From assembly GCF_029891735.1 (NCBI RefSeq), contig NZ_JANQDH010000108.1:1-64000 (forward strand): 64,000 nucleotides of DNA. Direction: 5' to 3'. Position numbers and translations under genes: made by a program. Shown here piece by piece: positions 38,588-46,378 of this stretch. Source of the DNA: Chrysosporum bergii ANA360D (lineage in GTDB: Bacteria; Cyanobacteriota; Cyanobacteriia; Cyanobacteriales; Nostocaceae). The notes under the pieces are model-generated. The model searched no databases. It saw nothing but the letters and a program-made list of their open reading frames with translations, and was not told the origin of the DNA. Every line of letters starts with the position of its first letter. The first letter of the stretch is position 1.

Positions 38588-40465
38588 ATGAGTCCCAACT
38601 ATACTGATGCCAATACTTCTCAAATCACTACTGAATTATACAAGGAATTCTCAGTAAACAACTACTCAGAATCTTCCCCTAACGGTTCTCAACAGTTGGA
38701 AAAAGTAGAGCAAAACAAGGACATTCAACCTTTCTTGCTCAACCAACCTCCTCAACTGTCAGTTGCCGAAGCGATCGCCCAAATATTAGAAACACTAGGT
38801 ATAGAATATGCCTTTGGAGTAGCCGGCGGCGCAATAGCTAACCTATGGAACGCCCTTTCTAATAGCAACATACAAGTATTCAACTTCCGCCACGAAGCAG
38901 GGGCTGCATTTGCCGCTACTGAAGCCTACTTTGCCAACCATCGCCCCACTGTAATCTTTACCACCGCAGGACCTGGAATCACTAACGCCCTCACTGGTTT
39001 ATTCGCCGCCCGTGGAGAAGGAGCAAAAGTAATTTTATTATCAGCCTGCACCTCAGCATCCCAAAGAGGAAAATGGGCAATTCAAGAAACCAGCACCTAC
39101 ACCCTACCCAGTAGCGGTATCTTCACTCCAGGGACCATATTCAACTACGCCATCACTTTAGAATCCCCAGACCAAATTCCCCAAATCTTCCGGAAAATAG
39201 CCCTTGGGTTGGCACAACCAGGACCTTTTGTTGCCCATTTAAGCATCCCTACCGCCATCCAAACCAACTTAATTGATTCCTTACCCCCATTAGACATACC
39301 AACATTTTCCTACCCCCCCAGTCCAGAAACCATTACCAAAACCATAGAACTACTATCCACAGGCACATTCGCCATGTGGCTGGGTTTTGGCGCACGTCAC
39401 GCCGCAGATGAAATTCGCATCTTAGCCGAAAAAACTGGCGCAGCAGTTATGTGTTCCCCTCGTGGTAAAGGCATCTTCCCAGAAAATCATCCCCAGTTTG
39501 TTGGTGTGACCGGGTTGGCCGGTCATAGTTCAGTCCTCACCTATATGGAAGAACACACCCCCCAACGCACCCTAGTATTAGGAACCCGCCTAGGAGAACC
39601 CACATCATTCTGGAACAAAACCATGGTTCCCCCCCAAGGTTTTATTCATGTAGATATCGACCCAGAAGTTCCAGGAGTAGCTTATCCACACGCAGAAACA
39701 TTCCCCATTCAGTGCGACATCAAAGCTTATCTCCAACAATTACTACAACAATGGGAGGAAATTCCTACCATCACACACATATCCCTGCCCCATCCACAGC
39801 CCCCCATCATCACCCACGCCGCCACAGTAGATGATAGTCCAGTGCGCCCGGAATTTTTAATGGCAGCCATTCAAAAAATCATTGTAGAAGGTAGTGATGC
39901 TGTGATTATGGCCGAATGTGGTAACTCCTTCACCTGGTCAACTCATCTACTGCGGTTTGACCACCCCCAGCGTTACCGAGTTAGCACTGGTGTAGGGGCC
40001 ATGGGTCACACTGCAACAGGAGTGTTAGGAGCGGCCCAAGCCCGAAAAGGTAAAGCAGTAGCCATTGTTGGCGACGGAGCTATGTTAATGAACAACGAAA
40101 TTAGCACAGCCGTTAAATATAACATCCCCGCAGTGTGGATTGTACTCAACGATGCCCGTTACAATATGTGCCATCAAGGCATGAAAACCCTAGGTTTACA
40201 AGGCGCAGATGCAGAAATGCCGGAAACTAACTTTACCATGATCGCTCGCGGCATGGGAGCAGAAGCAGTGGGAGTAGTGCGGGAATCAGATTTAGAACCA
40301 GCATTAAACCAAGCCATGGTTGCCAAAGTTCCCTTTCTCGTTGATGTTGTCATTGACCCAGACCAACCAGCCCCCTCTGGTGGTAGAAACAAAAGTCTAG
40401 CAGCTCAAGGGGTGACAACAAAGCAAATTAACGGTAGTAAACCAGCCTCATTTCCTGCACTTTAA
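38588..40465 (+). CDS. scyA: Scytonemin synthesis ThDP enzyme ScyA (acetolactate-synthase-like)
   Basis: 625 residues. ScyA joins indole-3-pyruvate and p-hydroxyphenylpyruvate by ThDP chemistry into the beta-ketoacid precursor of scytonemin. An unstructured N-terminus of about 55 residues precedes the ThDP fold: FGVAGGAIANLWNAL, catalytic Glu103 in FRHEAGAAFAA, TTAGPGITNAL, central domain, and the ThDP/Mg motif GDGAMLMN (495-502) with NDARYN about 27 residues later. First gene of scyABCDEF, 12 bp before scyB. Cytoplasmic. Confidence 0.96.
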   Translation: MSPNYTDANTSQITTELYKEFSVNNYSESSPNGSQQLEKVEQNKDIQPFLLNQPPQLSVAEAIAQILETLGIEYAFGVAGGAIANLWNALSNSNIQVFNFRHEAGAAFAATEAYFANHRPTVIFTTAGPGITNALTGLFAARGEGAKVILLSACTSASQRGKWAIQETSTYTLPSSGIFTPGTIFNYAITLESPDQIPQIFRKIALGLAQPGPFVAHLSIPTAIQTNLIDSLPPLDIPTFSYPPSPETITKTIELLSTGTFAMWLGFGARHAADEIRILAEKTGAAVMCSPRGKGIFPENHPQFVGVTGLAGHSSVLTYMEEHTPQRTLVLGTRLGEPTSFWNKTMVPPQGFIHVDIDPEVPGVAYPHAETFPIQCDIKAYLQQLLQQWEEIPTITHISLPHPQPPIITHAATVDDSPVRPEFLMAAIQKIIVEGSDAVIMAECGNSFTWSTHLLRFDHPQRYRVSTGVGAMGHTATGVLGAAQARKGKAVAIVGDGAMLMNNEISTAVKYNIPAVWIVLNDARYNMCHQGMKTLGLQGADAEMPETNFTMIARGMGAEAVGVVRESDLEPALNQAMVAKVPFLVDVVIDPDQPAPSGGRNKSLAAQGVTTKQINGSKPASFPAL

Positions 40466-40477
40466 CCAATCAGCACA

Positions 40478-41530
40478 ATGCCACTGTTTGAAACTGTAAA
40501 AGACATGGGTCATGAACAGGTGCTATTCTGTCATGGCAAAAATCCTCCCATAAAAGCAATTATCGCCATCCATAACACCAGCCTGGGTCCAGCTATGGGA
40601 GCCACAAGACTCTACCCTTATGTGAGTGAGGAAGATGCACTAACAGATGTGCTGCGCCTCAGTCGAGGTATGACCTACAAGGCAGCCTGCGCTAACATCC
40701 CCATGGGAGGAGGAAAGGCAGTAATTATAGCCCATCCCCAGCAAAAAACCCCAGAACTGCTCAAAGCCTATGCAGGTTTTATCAACAACCTCAACGGACA
40801 ATTCATCACAGGACAAGATATTAACCTCACCCCTGAAGATGTACGAGTAATTCGTGAACAAACTAAATACGTGGTAGGAGGAGAAGAAAAATCCGGCGGA
40901 CCCGCCCCCATCACAGCCCTAGGAGTATTTCTAGGCATCAAAGCCGCAGTACAAGCCCATTGGCAAAGTCGAGAACTTCAAGGGCTGAAGGTGGCTATTC
41001 AAGGACTAGGAAATGTTGGTAAAAATGTCTGCCGTTACTTACACGAACATAAAATCAAACTTTATGTCAGCGATGTAGATCCAGCTAAAACGGCAGAAAT
41101 GCAGCAACTTTTTAACGCTACAGTTGTTAGTAACCAAGAAATTTACTCACAAGATGTTGATATCTTCGCTCCCTGCGCCCTAGGCGGAATCATCAACCAG
41201 CAAACAATACCCCAACTCAAAGCAAAAATCATCGCTGGCGCTGCTAATAATCAACTAGCAGATGAAAAAACACATAGTCAAATGCTCACGGAAAAAGGTA
41301 TTACCTACTGCCCAGATTATGTGATTAATGCCGGGGGTTTAATTAATGTTTACAACGAAATGATTGGCTATGAAGACACTAAAGTTATGCAGCAAGTACA
41401 TCAAATTTATGACACCCTGCTCACCATTTTCGACATAGCTAAACGCAAAAATATCACTACTAACGAAGCCGCACAGCAACTGGCAGAATATCGCATCATT
41501 AACACCAAAAAAAAACCAAATTATCAATAA
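40478..41530 (+). CDS. scyB: ScyB, tryptophan dehydrogenase (Glu/Leu dehydrogenase family)
   Basis: 350 residues. Oxidatively deaminates L-tryptophan to indole-3-pyruvate with NAD, feeding ScyA. Family features: GPAMGATRLYPY, catalytic lysines 68 (MTYKAA) and 80 (PMGGGKAV), TGQDINLTPEDV, and dinucleotide-binding QGLGNVGKNV (176-181), followed by PCALGGIIN and AGAANNQLA. The KKKPN C-terminus is charged. The binding pocket differs from leucine dehydrogenase but I cannot read specificity from sequence alone; the context decides the call. Confidence 0.95.
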   Translation: MPLFETVKDMGHEQVLFCHGKNPPIKAIIAIHNTSLGPAMGATRLYPYVSEEDALTDVLRLSRGMTYKAACANIPMGGGKAVIIAHPQQKTPELLKAYAGFINNLNGQFITGQDINLTPEDVRVIREQTKYVVGGEEKSGGPAPITALGVFLGIKAAVQAHWQSRELQGLKVAIQGLGNVGKNVCRYLHEHKIKLYVSDVDPAKTAEMQQLFNATVVSNQEIYSQDVDIFAPCALGGIINQQTIPQLKAKIIAGAANNQLADEKTHSQMLTEKGITYCPDYVINAGGLINVYNEMIGYEDTKVMQQVHQIYDTLLTIFDIAKRKNITTNEAAQQLAEYRIINTKKKPNYQ

Positions 41531-41546
41531 CTAACTGGAGTCACTA

Positions 41547-42500
41547 ATGGAAAAAAATTCATTTGCTACATCAACCTACATCGCCGCCTCCCCTGAAAGA
41601 GTTTTTGAATATCTGTGCGGTTTAAAAAACCTAGATGAATGGACACTCTTTAGCCGGATGATCAAGCAAATAGACCAAGACACCTGGCTAGGAACAGCAT
41701 CAGGTTATCAAAAAAACCTCTACTACCATGTGAAGAAACTAGAAAATGAGCTTTTTTACGGCATTGAATGGCATTGCGGATTTGAATATAACAACTACTT
41801 CCAAGTATACCCCGTTCTCCTCTTTCCCCCCCATTACATCGACCCAGAAACAGACGAAACAGGTGTGTATTTTCATTGGTTGAGCTTTGTTGACCCCAAA
41901 CGACAAACCCCTATGATTATGCAGGGTATTCACACCGTACACACATCAGAAACTCGCTCCTTAAAAGCCATTCTAGAACGCCAAGGCGGACGCAGCACAG
42001 CAGCAAAGGGTCGTTACTTTATCGACACTGATACCATCTATGTTGATGCACCTGTTGATATGGGGATTGACTATTTATCGGACTTGGAAAAAATGGATGA
42101 GTGGGCCCATTTATTGCGACTAACTAAGCAGATTAATTCCCAATCTGGAGAATTTAAAGATGAATATGAGCAAAAAGTAAAAATTTCCCTGCGTCCACAC
42201 AAATTAAGTAAATATCACTTACTAGAACAAGAGTACTTTTATCCAGATTACGGATTTTACCAGCGTTCTGTGGCTTTACTTATTCCCACAGCCTATGCCT
42301 TTGCTGACCCTGAAGCATCTGGATTTATCCTACATCGAATCACCTTTTGGCACACAGATCAACTCCTTGCCCACGGCAAACTACAAATTGAAGACTTTGG
42401 CGCTGAAAGTATGAACATTAAAAGAATGTTAGAAGCCCAAGCGGGTAATATGCAATCTTTTGATTTGGGGATGAGTTATATCCCAAAGTCTCATAAATAA
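41547..42500 (+). CDS. scyC: ScyC, scytonemin precursor cyclase
   Basis: 317 residues, cytoplasmic, no signal peptide; GGAG ribosome-binding site upstream. ScyC cyclises and decarboxylates the ScyA product to the monomer of scytonemin. The protein consists of two similar halves: EYLCGLKNLDEW (21-32) repeats as DYLSDLEKMDEW (175-186), followed in each by KQI; TRSLKAILERQGG (136-148) repeats as SMNIKRMLEAQAG (288-300). The constant offset near 153 shows a tandem duplication of a domain that looks like the START/SRPBCC type. 16 bp after scyB. Confidence 0.95.
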   Translation: MEKNSFATSTYIAASPERVFEYLCGLKNLDEWTLFSRMIKQIDQDTWLGTASGYQKNLYYHVKKLENELFYGIEWHCGFEYNNYFQVYPVLLFPPHYIDPETDETGVYFHWLSFVDPKRQTPMIMQGIHTVHTSETRSLKAILERQGGRSTAAKGRYFIDTDTIYVDAPVDMGIDYLSDLEKMDEWAHLLRLTKQINSQSGEFKDEYEQKVKISLRPHKLSKYHLLEQEYFYPDYGFYQRSVALLIPTAYAFADPEASGFILHRITFWHTDQLLAHGKLQIEDFGAESMNIKRMLEAQAGNMQSFDLGMSYIPKSHK

Positions 42501-42551: not shown

Positions 42552-43799
42552 ATGAACATCAAGCATTTGACTATTACCCTCCTTAGTCTATATCTAACAG
42601 CTATGTGGGGTATGAAATCAGCCACCGCCGCATCCTTTACAGTCGTAGCCGACGGCTTAAATAATCCCGGTGGGTTAAGCTTTGGTCAAGATGGTAAACT
42701 ATACATCACTGAAGGCGGAAGCGGAGGAGAGGGCCCCTGTGTTCCTCCCCCCAGTGGTAGCGGTGATTCCTTATGTTTAGGCAATAATGGTGTGGTTAGC
42801 GTTATTGATAACGGTGAAGTAAAACCGATATTAACAGGACTACCCTCTTTAGCCCGCACTGATGGAACTAGAGCCGCAGGACCCCGGGACATTCAATTTG
42901 ATCCCACAGGCCAAGCTTATATATTACTAGGATACGGCGCTAATCCCACCTTTCGCGATCGCTTAGGAGAAACCGGACTAGGAACCATCATAACCCCAGA
43001 CCTTGACAACAACACCTGGACAAGCATTGCAGATATCTCCAACCATGAACTTGTCAACAATCCCGATGGTGAAGACTTAAACAGTAACCCTTTAAAATTC
43101 ATTATTGATGGTAATCAAATGATTACCATAGACTCAGCAGCTAACAGCCTAGTCAGCTACGACATAGCGCAAAATACAATACAAACCCTGGCAGTATTTC
43201 CCCAGCAACAAATTATCAATCCAGTCTTCCCTTCCGGGGCTTCTCCCTCCCCGGAACCAGAGCAAATATCAACCGAAACAGCACAAACTACAACTCAATC
43301 AGTGCCCACCGCAATCACCCAGGGACCAGACAATGCCTACTACATAAGTGAGTATACAGGGTTTCCTTTTCCGGAAGGTGGAGCGAAAATATACCGAGTT
43401 GGCGATGACGGAACACCAACAATTTATGCAGATGGGTTGACTCAACTCATAGACCTAGACTTTGACCCAGAAGGCAACTTATACGCCCTGCAATACGCCA
43501 ACGAATCAGCCTGGAAGGGTAACCCAGCAGGTTCTTTAATCAAAATAGCCCCCGACGGCACACAAACCACTGTTCTCAGTGGTAACGGATTAGAATCCCC
43601 CACAGGCTTAAGCATCAGTGATGACGGTGTAATTTATATCGCCAACCGAGGCGATCGCCCGTGGGCAGGGCAAATCATCCGCGTAACCAACACCCAATCA
43701 GTACCCGAACCCCACACCCCATATACACCATTAATTTTCAGCACCTTGGGTTTAATTTGCTTCACCAAGAAACATAAATTTTTACTCAATAAACACTAA
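42552..43799 (+). CDS. scyD: ScyD, exported beta-propeller protein with PEP-CTERM
   Basis: 415 residues. Signal peptide (hydrophobic 5-20, cleavage near TAA-SF at 27). A six-blade-like propeller follows with repeats such as NNPGGLSFGQDGKLYITEGGSGG and LDFDPEGNLYALQYAN; a Cys pair lies at CVPPPSGSGDSLC. The C-terminus has SVPEP, a hydrophobic helix and basic KKHK: a PEP-CTERM sorting signal. ScyD is placed in the periplasm, working with ScyE/ScyF on monomer dimerisation; its necessity is debated in the literature. Paralogue of ScyE. Confidence 0.93.
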   Translation: MNIKHLTITLLSLYLTAMWGMKSATAASFTVVADGLNNPGGLSFGQDGKLYITEGGSGGEGPCVPPPSGSGDSLCLGNNGVVSVIDNGEVKPILTGLPSLARTDGTRAAGPRDIQFDPTGQAYILLGYGANPTFRDRLGETGLGTIITPDLDNNTWTSIADISNHELVNNPDGEDLNSNPLKFIIDGNQMITIDSAANSLVSYDIAQNTIQTLAVFPQQQIINPVFPSGASPSPEPEQISTETAQTTTQSVPTAITQGPDNAYYISEYTGFPFPEGGAKIYRVGDDGTPTIYADGLTQLIDLDFDPEGNLYALQYANESAWKGNPAGSLIKIAPDGTQTTVLSGNGLESPTGLSISDDGVIYIANRGDRPWAGQIIRVTNTQSVPEPHTPYTPLIFSTLGLICFTKKHKFLLNKH

Positions 43800-43817
43800 C
43801 TATCAACCCCAGAAACC

Positions 43818-45143
43818 ATGAAACTCAAGTCATTTACTATCACACTCCTAACCTTTTGTGCCGCATCCCTAGCCAGCAGCACTGCTGCGGCCGCCGCCAC
43901 CTTATCAGTAGTCGCAGATAACCTTAACAACCCCCGCAACTTTGACTTTGCCCCGGACGGCAGCATTTACCTAACAGAAAGCGGCTCAGGAGGTGACGGT
44001 AAAGACGGTCGATGTGTACCCTCACCCAGCGCCCAATATATACCCCTATGTTCTGGAGAAACAGCCTCTCTGATTAAAATCACCCCAGACGGTAACAAAG
44101 AAACAGTCATCCCCAACCTGCCATCCTTAGCTCTAACCCCTTCTGGAGAACAAGCAGCAGGACCTGCCGACTTTAAATTTGATTCTCAAGGAAACGCTTA
44201 TCTTTTATACGGCTTTGCAGGGAACCCCAACACCAGACAAGAACCCTTAAACACCCCCCTGCTAGGACAACTATATAAAGTAGACCTAGAAACCAACACC
44301 TTCACCAGCCTGGCAGACTTCGCCCAATATGAACTAGACAACAACCCAGACGGCAGCGACGTTATTAGTAACCCCTATGCTTTAGAAATACAAGACGACA
44401 CAGCCTATGTAGTAGATGGAGGGGGGAACACAATATATTCCGTGGGACTTGATGGTAGTGGCATCAAAAACGTAGCCAAATTCCCAGAAAAAGTACTACC
44501 AGCCGAACAACTAGAATTTCCCACACTTCCAGAAGGAATAGTAGACCCCACAGGAGGCGCACCATTACCCCCCGGCTTTACCACAGCCACCAACGGCTTA
44601 CCAGTATCAAATCAATCAGTTCCCACTGGGATAACTATAGCCCCCGATGGCAGCTTAACAGTCAGCGAATTTACTTACTTTCCCTATCCAGAAGAAGAAG
44701 CCCGCATTTATACAGTTAACCCTGACGACTTATCAATAGAAACCATAGCCGACGGTTTCACCCAACTAACCGGGGTAGCATACGACCCAGAGGGTAATTT
44801 ATACGCTTTGCAACACCTCGACCAATCAGAATGGAAAGCCATAGAACAAGGCGGTAACATCATCGGTGATGTCAGTGGTTCTCTGATCAAAATAGCTCCA
44901 GATGGTACACGCACCACGATTTTGAGTGGCGACGACGGACTAGAACTAGCATCTGGTTTAGCCTTTGGACCCGACGGCAACCTATATACATCCAATTACT
45001 CTCGCCTATCGGGAACAGGGCAACTAGTCAGAATTGACCTAACACCAGAGAAAGTACCCGAACCCGCCGCAATTGGGGCAATAGTAGCCGTGGCTTTGAG
45101 CATTTTTTCCAAAACCAAAAGCAAAAATTTATCCCCCGATTAA
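43818..45143 (+). CDS. scyE: ScyE, exported beta-propeller protein with PEP-CTERM
   Basis: 441 residues. Signal peptide (hydrophobic 7-20, cleavage in the Ala-rich AAAAAT). Same architecture as ScyD: NNPRNFDFAPDGSIYLTESGSGG, Cys pair CVPSPSAQYIPLC, NHL-like blades and the late LYTSNYSRLSGTG. C-terminal VPEPAAIGAIVAV and basic KTKSK form the PEP-CTERM. Genetic work in Nostoc, as I recall it, links ScyE to late periplasmic oxidation/dimerisation of the monomer. 18 bp after scyD; the two arose by tandem duplication. Confidence 0.93.
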   Translation: MKLKSFTITLLTFCAASLASSTAAAAATLSVVADNLNNPRNFDFAPDGSIYLTESGSGGDGKDGRCVPSPSAQYIPLCSGETASLIKITPDGNKETVIPNLPSLALTPSGEQAAGPADFKFDSQGNAYLLYGFAGNPNTRQEPLNTPLLGQLYKVDLETNTFTSLADFAQYELDNNPDGSDVISNPYALEIQDDTAYVVDGGGNTIYSVGLDGSGIKNVAKFPEKVLPAEQLEFPTLPEGIVDPTGGAPLPPGFTTATNGLPVSNQSVPTGITIAPDGSLTVSEFTYFPYPEEEARIYTVNPDDLSIETIADGFTQLTGVAYDPEGNLYALQHLDQSEWKAIEQGGNIIGDVSGSLIKIAPDGTRTTILSGDDGLELASGLAFGPDGNLYTSNYSRLSGTGQLVRIDLTPEKVPEPAAIGAIVAVALSIFSKTKSKNLSPD

Positions 45144-45217: not shown

Positions 45218-46378
45218 ATGGCACTCGTAAAAAAATTGTCCATGGCATTAGCAAGTGCTGGGTTAATCACCCTCACAGCAACCAGTCCAGCAGCAGCCTT
45301 AAATTTAAAATACGAAACCAGCATAGGCAGACCTGCTACATTTACCGATAATGACTTTCCCGGAGTTCCAGGAGTATTAACGGTTCCCCAAGGGATAGGA
45401 GTAGAAGACTCCACCGGAAACATATTTGTCAGCAATGGCAGAGGTATAGACCGAGTGGATGTATTTGATAGTCAAGGCAACTACATCAAAGGCATAGGCA
45501 GCACTGGAACTGGACCAGGAGAATTTGACGAACCGGCTGACCTGAGATTTAACCCCATCACCGGAGACCTGCACGTAGGAGACGTTTTCAACAGTCGAAT
45601 TAATGTATTCGATGCCCAAGGCAATTACAAAACTTCCTATGGTTCCTTTAGCGGTCCGGTAGAAGACAGATTATTTTTTGGTCCTGGGGGAATGGACTTT
45701 GACGCAGCCGGCAACTTATACGTAAGTGATTTTAGTGCTGATGTTATCAAAGTATATAATCCCCAAGGAGAACAAATTAAAACCATAGGTAGCCCCGGCA
45801 GTGAACCAGGTCAATTTTCAGGTCCTGGAGGTTTAATAATTTCCGACACCACAGGTAAAATTTACGTCAACGACCAATATAACGGACGGGTTCAAGTCCT
45901 GGACCCGGAAGGTAACTTTCTCTTTGCCTTTGGCTCCACAGGTTCTGAGCCGGGACAATTCAAAGAACCCATCGGCATAGATGTAGATGAGTATGAAAAT
46001 ATTTACGTAGCCGACTCTCAAAACAGCCGGGTTCAAGTCTTCGATGCCAACGGCAACTTTCTCACATCCTTTGGTGAACCCACCCGCGATGCTAACGGAG
46101 ACATAGTTCCACCCCCCACCCCACCTGCATTAGGAGGCACAACCCCTTACGGTGACCCCATAGACCTAGAACCAGGTAAATTTAACTGGACAGCGGGACT
46201 ACACTACAACGATGACAAAATTTACGTAGGTGATTTTTTTCAAGGTCGCATCCAAGTCTTAGAAGTAGAACGCACAGCCAGAGTACCAGAACCAACCGCC
46301 TTGTTAGGTTTAGGACTGTTCGGGCTAGGGTCTACAGTTGTAAAACTGCGAAGAAACAGACTAAGAAACAGTAATTAA
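45218..46378 (+). CDS. scyF: ScyF, exported NHL-repeat protein with PEP-CTERM
   Basis: 386 residues, AGGAG ribosome-binding site. Signal peptide (hydrophobic 8-24, cleavage near AAA-LN at 29). Six NHL repeats are easily seen (for instance IYVADSQNSRVQVFDANGNF; LYVSDFSADVIKVYNPQGE), forming a propeller. C-terminal RVPEPTALLGLGLFGLG and basic KLRRNRLR form the PEP-CTERM. Distinct from ScyD/E in repeat type. Last gene of the scy transcript: a strong terminator lies right after the stop. Confidence 0.93.
   Translation: MALVKKLSMALASAGLITLTATSPAAALNLKYETSIGRPATFTDNDFPGVPGVLTVPQGIGVEDSTGNIFVSNGRGIDRVDVFDSQGNYIKGIGSTGTGPGEFDEPADLRFNPITGDLHVGDVFNSRINVFDAQGNYKTSYGSFSGPVEDRLFFGPGGMDFDAAGNLYVSDFSADVIKVYNPQGEQIKTIGSPGSEPGQFSGPGGLIISDTTGKIYVNDQYNGRVQVLDPEGNFLFAFGSTGSEPGQFKEPIGIDVDEYENIYVADSQNSRVQVFDANGNFLTSFGEPTRDANGDIVPPPTPPALGGTTPYGDPIDLEPGKFNWTAGLHYNDDKIYVGDFFQGRIQVLEVERTARVPEPTALLGLGLFGLGSTVVKLRRNRLRNSN

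Follow-up and report, generated by a model that had tools for sequence, protein, structure and literature searches.

How ScyC, the cyclase encoded by scyC in the window (the whole stretch of 64,000 nucleotides analysed here), closes its ring, and why its sequence resembles itself, are the questions raised by this locus. In Nostoc punctiforme, the enzyme Npun_R1274 has been reported to cyclise and decarboxylate the labile beta-ketoacid that ScyA forms from one indole-3-pyruvate and one p-hydroxyphenylpyruvate, and dimerisation takes place later, in the periplasm (PMC4870267, PMC7997468). The earlier note, made from the sequence alone, had proposed that two domains would allow ScyC to hold a bulky linear dimeric precursor; this part of the proposal had to be given up, as the substrate is the precursor of the scytonemin monomer (PMC4870267, PMC7997468).

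ScyC and its neighbours were described in a 2009 comparative study as "truly unique proteins" whose function could not be readily predicted (PMC2726228), and a BLAST study of 2022 recovered no homologue other than ScyC itself (PMC9796282). The literature that we found compares the scytonemin and carbazole pathways only via their coupling enzymes (PMC9822442). Our literature search returned no report of the domain structure of ScyC or of a relation to CqsB2, and an earlier mention in the primary papers on either protein is possible. Di-domain helix-grip cyclases and CqsB2 are themselves already known, and we claim no priority for the domain structure of ScyC or for its link to CqsB2.

The scyC gene and its cluster

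The identification of the open reading frame as ScyC, already made in the earlier note, is confirmed by the NCBIfam model NF035924, which is matched with 592 bits (curated cut-off 400) over model positions 1-312 of 312. The genes lie on one strand in the order scyA, scyB, scyC, two ScyD/ScyE-family genes, scyF and an EboA-family gene (Table 1), and the position of scyC after scyA and scyB in a scytonemin cluster is the one expected of a ScyC gene.

Table 1. Genes of the scytonemin cluster in the window and features of the ScyC protein (residue numbers are those of ScyC)
Feature	Coordinates	Strand	Basis or remark
scyA, thiamine diphosphate acyloin-coupling enzyme	38588..40465	+	NF035923, 1099 bits, cut-off 1020
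scyB, tryptophan dehydrogenase	40478..41530	+	NF035922, 634 bits, cut-off 600
scyC, scytonemin biosynthesis cyclase/decarboxylase, 317 aa	41547..42500	+	NF035924, ORF listing
N-domain, residues 5-146 (E5-12, H16-24, H26-32, six strands, H122-146), proposed catalytic	41559..41984	+	AF2, Foldseek
Helix motif copy 1, EYLCGLKNLDEW, residues 21-32	41607..41642	+	
Y88, aligned to catalytic Tyr144 of CqsB2, invariant in 40 ScyC	41808..41810	+	
H132-x-x-E135, aligned to catalytic His206 and Glu209 of CqsB2, both invariant in 40 ScyC	41940..41951	+	
C-domain, residues 157-298 (E157-166, H170-177, H180-186, six strands, H281-298), proposed pseudo-catalytic/partner	42015..42440	+	AF2, hhalign to N-domain
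Helix motif copy 2, DYLSDLEKMDEW, residues 175-186	42069..42104	+	
D205-E206, invariant acidic pair at the CqsB2 Glu105 position of the C-domain	42159..42164	+	register uncertain by one residue
F284-x-x-E287, C-domain, Glu kept, His replaced by Phe/Tyr/Leu	42396..42407	+	
Two ScyD/ScyE-family genes (42552-43799, 43818-45143)	42552..45143	+	NF033206
scyF	45218..46378	+	NF035926, 599 bits

Internal repeat of ScyC

An internal duplication had been suspected from paired motifs, all of which were found: the two helix motifs of Table 1 (offset 154), KQI at residues 40 and 194 (154), GVYFHWLSF at 106 and GFILHRITF at 259 (153), and LKAILERQGG at 139 and IKRMLEAQAG at 291 (152). The offset of about 153 quoted before is thus correct to within one residue, but it is not strictly constant, since the measured values range from 152 to 154. 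The ten identities claimed among the 23 positions of residues 20-42 are exact at offset 154; this is the top 23-residue window over offsets 100-216, and ten was never reached when the protein was shuffled 500 times. Over the whole halves, the Smith-Waterman score is 92; in 3,000 shuffles it averaged 29 and never exceeded 57.

ScyC sequences were collected from Nostocales, other cyanobacteria and three Alphaproteobacteria (n=40). When the profiles of the two halves were compared with hhalign, they aligned end to end over 140 columns with 97% probability, 21% identity and E-values of 1.5e-11 to 5e-12; the real score of 72 compares with 23 for the best of 100 column-shuffled controls and 12.6 for the reversed one. 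The self-alignment by which the duplication was to be checked is therefore significant. Fifteen columns are invariant in both halves (14 diverse sequences), and a tree places all N-halves in one group and all C-halves in another, the proteobacterial ScyC included. Judged by these comparisons, the repeat is real and old, and the two homologous halves are borne out by the profile alignment, the shuffles and the predicted structure alike.

Predicted fold

The AlphaFold2 model of ScyC, computed from a shallow alignment of 39 sequences, has a pLDDT of 90.6 and a pTM of 0.90, and the N-half modelled alone has a pLDDT of 88.5. The order of elements typical of helix-grip proteins (a strand, two short helices, six strands and a long helix) occurs twice, so that both halves are predicted to have like folds rather than different ones. 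ScyC is thus predicted to consist of two consecutive helix-grip (START/SRPBCC/Bet v1) domains, and the START/SRPBCC-like pocket enzyme anticipated in the earlier note is supported by this model and by its Foldseek matches to helix-grip proteins. The Pfam family Polyketide_cyc2 (PF10604) matches two stretches of ScyC below threshold (24.4 bits, E 4e-5, cut-off 27.4); this miss is a limit of the profile, the fold and the profile-profile evidence being strong.

Comparison with SRPBCC polyketide cyclases, also suggested earlier, was fruitful: the top four Foldseek matches of the whole model in the PDB are DynU16, BexL, CqsB2 and StfQ, with E-values of 6e-10 to 3e-8. DynU16 (6v04, from the dynemicin cluster, function unproven; PMC8488855) is the best whole-chain match (5.5e-10) and is likewise a di-domain helix-grip protein, but it has 11% identity and an rmsd of 16.7 A to ScyC, and its cavity bridges the domains. 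BexL (4xrw, E 3e-9) and StfQ (4xrt, E 3e-8) also carry two helix-grip domains per chain, one catalytic and one pseudo-catalytic, as would be the case in ScyC. They differ from it in sequence (11% identity), in joint superposition (rmsd 17-19 A, TM 0.32) and in their polyketide substrates. The rmsd of 17-19 A obtained when the whole model is superposed on DynU16, BexL and StfQ means that the packing of the domains differs from theirs or that the predicted packing is wrong; as modelled, ScyC packs differently from BexL and StfQ and possibly has a separate origin. The fit to CqsB2 (6ipv) is much better, with an rmsd of 3.1, over one domain.

Kinship with CqsB2

CqsB2, a carbazole synthase, is a cofactor-free cyclase of carbazole biosynthesis in Streptomyces, a homodimer of 239 aa subunits in which each pocket is covered by the partner subunit (PMC7466098). 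In this route, a thiamine-diphosphate enzyme couples indole-3-pyruvate with pyruvate, the product is extended by a KASIII-like enzyme, and the ring is closed by attack of the indole pi bond on a ketone, with subsequent loss of water (PMC7466098).

When the N-domain model was searched against the PDB, CqsB2 came first (E 1.1e-9, TM 0.80, rmsd 2.7 over 168 columns), the runner-up having an E-value of 8.8e-6. A profile in which the N- and C-halves were stacked gave CqsB2 as sole significant match among all PDB sequences (E 7.9e-4, next 0.17). Only this stacked profile reached significance: the single ScyC sequence found no relative in the PDB, and with the half profiles alone CqsB2 was recovered at E 0.12 (C-half) or was absent (N-half), among chance matches such as rotavirus VP4.

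Relatives of CqsB2 were then gathered with the 72 CqsB2 residues of the PDB-search alignment (n=11); they come from Embleya (86% identical), Rhodococcus and Nocardia, and from five genomes of Nostocaceae with six such loci between them. A profile built from these relatives aligns with that of the stacked ScyC halves (E 1.7e-10), with the N-domain over its full length (E 1.3e-6, 139 columns) and with the C-domain (E 1.1e-7, 55 columns); in each comparison, all of 100 shuffles scored lower. In the reverse direction, which is independent of the ScyC profile built here, a scan of 18,950 NCBIfam models matched 10 of the 11 relatives to the ScyC model (best E 1.3e-5) and returned one other family only, in one relative. 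A 32-residue piece of CqsB2 used as query returned four weak matches, of which the two examined were ScyC itself; this search was discarded as circular, the fragment having been picked for its likeness to ScyC.

As judged by profile and predicted fold together, CqsB2 is the nearest relative of known structure to the ScyC domain. That ScyC shares with it only the general SRPBCC fold, so that the likeness would be neither special nor mechanistically informative, is very improbable: SRPBCC proteins are indeed very many and widely diverged, the Polyketide_cyc2 score stays below its cut-off and the single sequence finds nothing in the PDB, but CqsB2 stands alone among PDB sequences that include many SRPBCC chains, is ahead of the next fold match by nearly four orders of magnitude in E-value, is tied to ScyC by the reverse search and agrees with it in three of five catalytic columns.

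Beyond the helix-grip domain, CqsB2/NzsI (PDB 6ipv, 6ipw) resembles ScyC in closing a ring onto the indole pi bond without cofactor and in belonging to a pathway with a thiamine-diphosphate coupling enzyme. It differs in having one domain, a homodimeric state and an N-terminal arm of about 60 residues, which lies over the pocket of the other subunit and is missing from ScyC, whose chain begins some 60 residues further on. Its product is a six-membered aromatic ring from a substrate previously extended by a KASIII-like enzyme, whereas ScyC forms a five-membered ring and CO2 is lost; in ScyC, this ring would result from attack of indole C-2 on the ketone, to judge from the structure of the substrate. 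Since the single-domain CqsB2 accommodates a comparable indole acyloin-type substrate (PMC7466098), substrate size does not explain the duplication of ScyC, contrary to what the earlier note had supposed. The kinship links two indole-alkaloid pathways and adds to the di-domain helix-grip cyclases one outside polyketide pathways.

Putative catalytic residues in the two domains

In CqsB2, the residues Glu105, Tyr144, Tyr172, His206 and Glu209 have been implicated in catalysis (PMC7466098). His206 and Glu209 protonate the oxyanion and His206 takes the ring proton (review, PMC7466098), while the removal of a proton at C4 and the step that makes the six-membered ring aromatic depend on Glu105, Tyr144 and Tyr172 (PMC7466098). 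The N-domain of ScyC matches three of these five columns (Tyr144, His206 and Glu209; Table 1), and the roles of His206 and Glu209 in CqsB2 correspond to steps that ScyC also needs. At the Glu105 position the N-domain has A51/S52/G53 and no acid, and Tyr172, which falls in a stretch absent from ScyC, is left without counterpart. Because these two are missing from the N-domain, ScyC is a relative, not a member, of the CqsB2-type indole cyclases; their absence would fit the different product of ScyC.

In the C-domain the equivalent of Y88 is S241, a variable position (S/C/N/T in 40 ScyC). Conservation is higher in the N-domain than in the C-domain (entropy of 0.68 versus 1.08 bits per column, p = 5e-5, 40 ScyC). 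The C-domain is not plainly dead, however, since it keeps many invariant polar residues (D205, E206, H263, D283 and E287). The active domain of di-domain ARO/CYC has a conserved arginine in its pocket; in ScyC, R37 is invariant at the level of sequence. Overall, the residue pattern points to one catalytic and one pseudo-catalytic domain.

Proposed mechanism and alternatives

We consider it probable that ScyC is a fused tandem of CqsB2-type helix-grip domains, the N-domain being catalytic and the C-domain a pseudo-catalytic partner that replaces the second subunit of CqsB2. By analogy with CqsB2, we infer that the active site is probably the N-domain pocket with Y88, H132 and E135. There, H132 and E135 on the long C-terminal helix, together with Y88 on a strand, would help indole C-2 to attack the ketone of the ScyA product, and the same set would protonate the oxyanion and take the proton of indole C-2, thereby driving the loss of water; the beta-ketoacid would then lose CO2. 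The C-domain would descend from the same unit as the N-domain, having lost the Tyr and His, and would pack on it, standing in for the other subunit of the CqsB2 homodimer; it might also contribute an acidic residue (D205/E206, E287). A precedent for this arrangement is BexL, in which the N-domain is catalytic and the C-domain pseudo-catalytic, StfQ being the reverse (PMC8488855). Catalysis by the N-domain only has counterpoints: the active domain of StfQ is the C-domain, the equivalent of Glu105 sits in the C-domain of ScyC, and Tyr172 has no counterpart. Placed beside CqsB2, ScyC acquires a fold, a probable site of catalysis and a mechanism open to testing with three point mutants.

Catalysis in both domains, one pocket cyclising and dehydrating and the other catalysing or gating decarboxylation after the intermediate is handed over, is in our view unlikely, although ScyC does perform two steps, cyclisation and decarboxylation (PMC4870267), the single cavity of DynU16 bridges its two domains (PMC8488855), and the residues noted above include invariant polar ones in N (Y88, H132, E135) as well as in C. 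The Tyr and His of the CqsB2 active site are absent from the C-domain, whose residues at these positions vary. Beta-ketoacids decarboxylate readily without an enzyme, so that no second site is required. Both ARO/CYC di-domains of known structure, moreover, have one pseudo-catalytic domain each (PMC8488855).

A further alternative concerns the origin only and is compatible with any mechanism: two paralogous domains that had already diverged may have been fused, instead of one domain being duplicated within ScyC. To this we give a small probability. A tree of the N, C and CqsB2 domains leaves room for it, as it consists of three clean groups and, being unrooted, does not determine the sister pair; but the N-C score (75) exceeds the N-CqsB2 (46) and C-CqsB2 (53) scores although the C-half is the least conserved, and both halves of ScyC lack a stretch of some 20 residues that precedes the last helix in CqsB2. 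Nor was a single-domain gene of ScyC type present in 194 cyanobacterial genomes, where the search recovered intact ScyC only.

An active site between the domains, with Y88, H132 and E135 from N and D205/E206 from C supplying the missing Glu105 of CqsB2, appears quite improbable. It would make the halves complementary, as the C-domain has an acid at the Glu105 position of CqsB2 and the N-domain has none, and it would recall both the capping of the CqsB2 pocket by the partner subunit (PMC7466098) and the bridging cavity of DynU16 (PMC8488855). The residue with which D205/E206 align lies within the pocket of CqsB2, however, so that they should face the C-domain's own cavity. In helix-grip proteins the cavity sits inside each domain, which also argues against a shared one.

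Genomic context and distribution

The genes next to the CqsB2 relatives broaden the comparison. In Rhodococcus and Nocardia, a gene for a thiamine-diphosphate enzyme adjoins the CqsB2 relative. In the three Nostocaceae loci that were fully read, the CqsB2-like gene is accompanied by a thiamine-diphosphate enzyme, a KASIII-like enzyme and a ScyB-like tryptophan dehydrogenase, forming carbazole-type clusters (L095 2811-11014, L096 2816-7625 and L097 3458-12071). The dehydrogenases of such Nostocaceae loci are 63-64% identical to the ScyB of the window, and the one tested, from L095, scores 637 bits with the ScyB equivalog model NF035922 (cut-off 600), so that this model also labels genes of non-scytonemin clusters. 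Relative to the neighbours of the Embleya CqsB2, the thiamine-diphosphate enzymes of two Nostocaceae loci are 57-59% and the KASIII-like enzymes 50-51% identical. On a Rhodococcus opacus plasmid (L092 2145-5561), genes for a thiamine-diphosphate enzyme, a CqsB2-like SRPBCC protein and a KASIII-type enzyme stand in a row and are annotated in generic terms only; this is a possible carbazole-type cluster in Nocardiaceae.

The thiamine-diphosphate enzymes beside the CqsB2 relatives are 23-27% identical to ScyA (E 2e-18 to 4e-33), a level typical of many members of a large family, and common descent of the whole module is thus not established. Each of the five Nostocaceae genomes that have a CqsB2-like gene (G705, G669, G691, G012 and G719) encodes a full ScyC, compared with 28 of 100 relatives overall; as related genomes are not independent of one another, this co-occurrence hints at kinship at most. 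We put at just under even the chance that scytonemin and bacterial carbazole pathways go back to one ancestral module for indole cyclisation, made up of a supply of indole-3-pyruvate, a coupling enzyme dependent on thiamine diphosphate and a helix-grip cyclase of CqsB2 type, and that this cyclase was duplicated and fused in the scytonemin line, with one copy remaining catalytic and the other replacing the second subunit.

Adjacent genes for ScyA and a two-domain ScyC also occur in Alphaproteobacteria, namely in a Rhodospirillales MAG (L034 2371-10814), in Dankookia rubra (L035 3958-6993) and in an Acetobacteraceae MAG (L036 4152-6945), with identities of 55-56% for ScyA and 53-55% for the full two-domain ScyC. 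In the Rhodospirillales MAG they are followed by genes for anthranilate synthase, trpC and a class II DAHP synthase. These loci are scytonemin-like clusters outside cyanobacteria, additional to the Methylocaldum case (PMC9796282). The Dankookia ScyC (L035 6001-6990) contains a small duplication in the C-domain, where FEQSAPPRHGK occurs twice in tandem.

Plasmid records were searched as well and contained no ScyC, and a weak match to the ScyC model in genome G356 (E 0.004, with stops) was taken as chance. One copy of ScyC per taxon has been described (PMC9796282); genome G052 departs from this, as it carries two copies (L044 and L067), 80% and 61% identical to the ScyC of the window.
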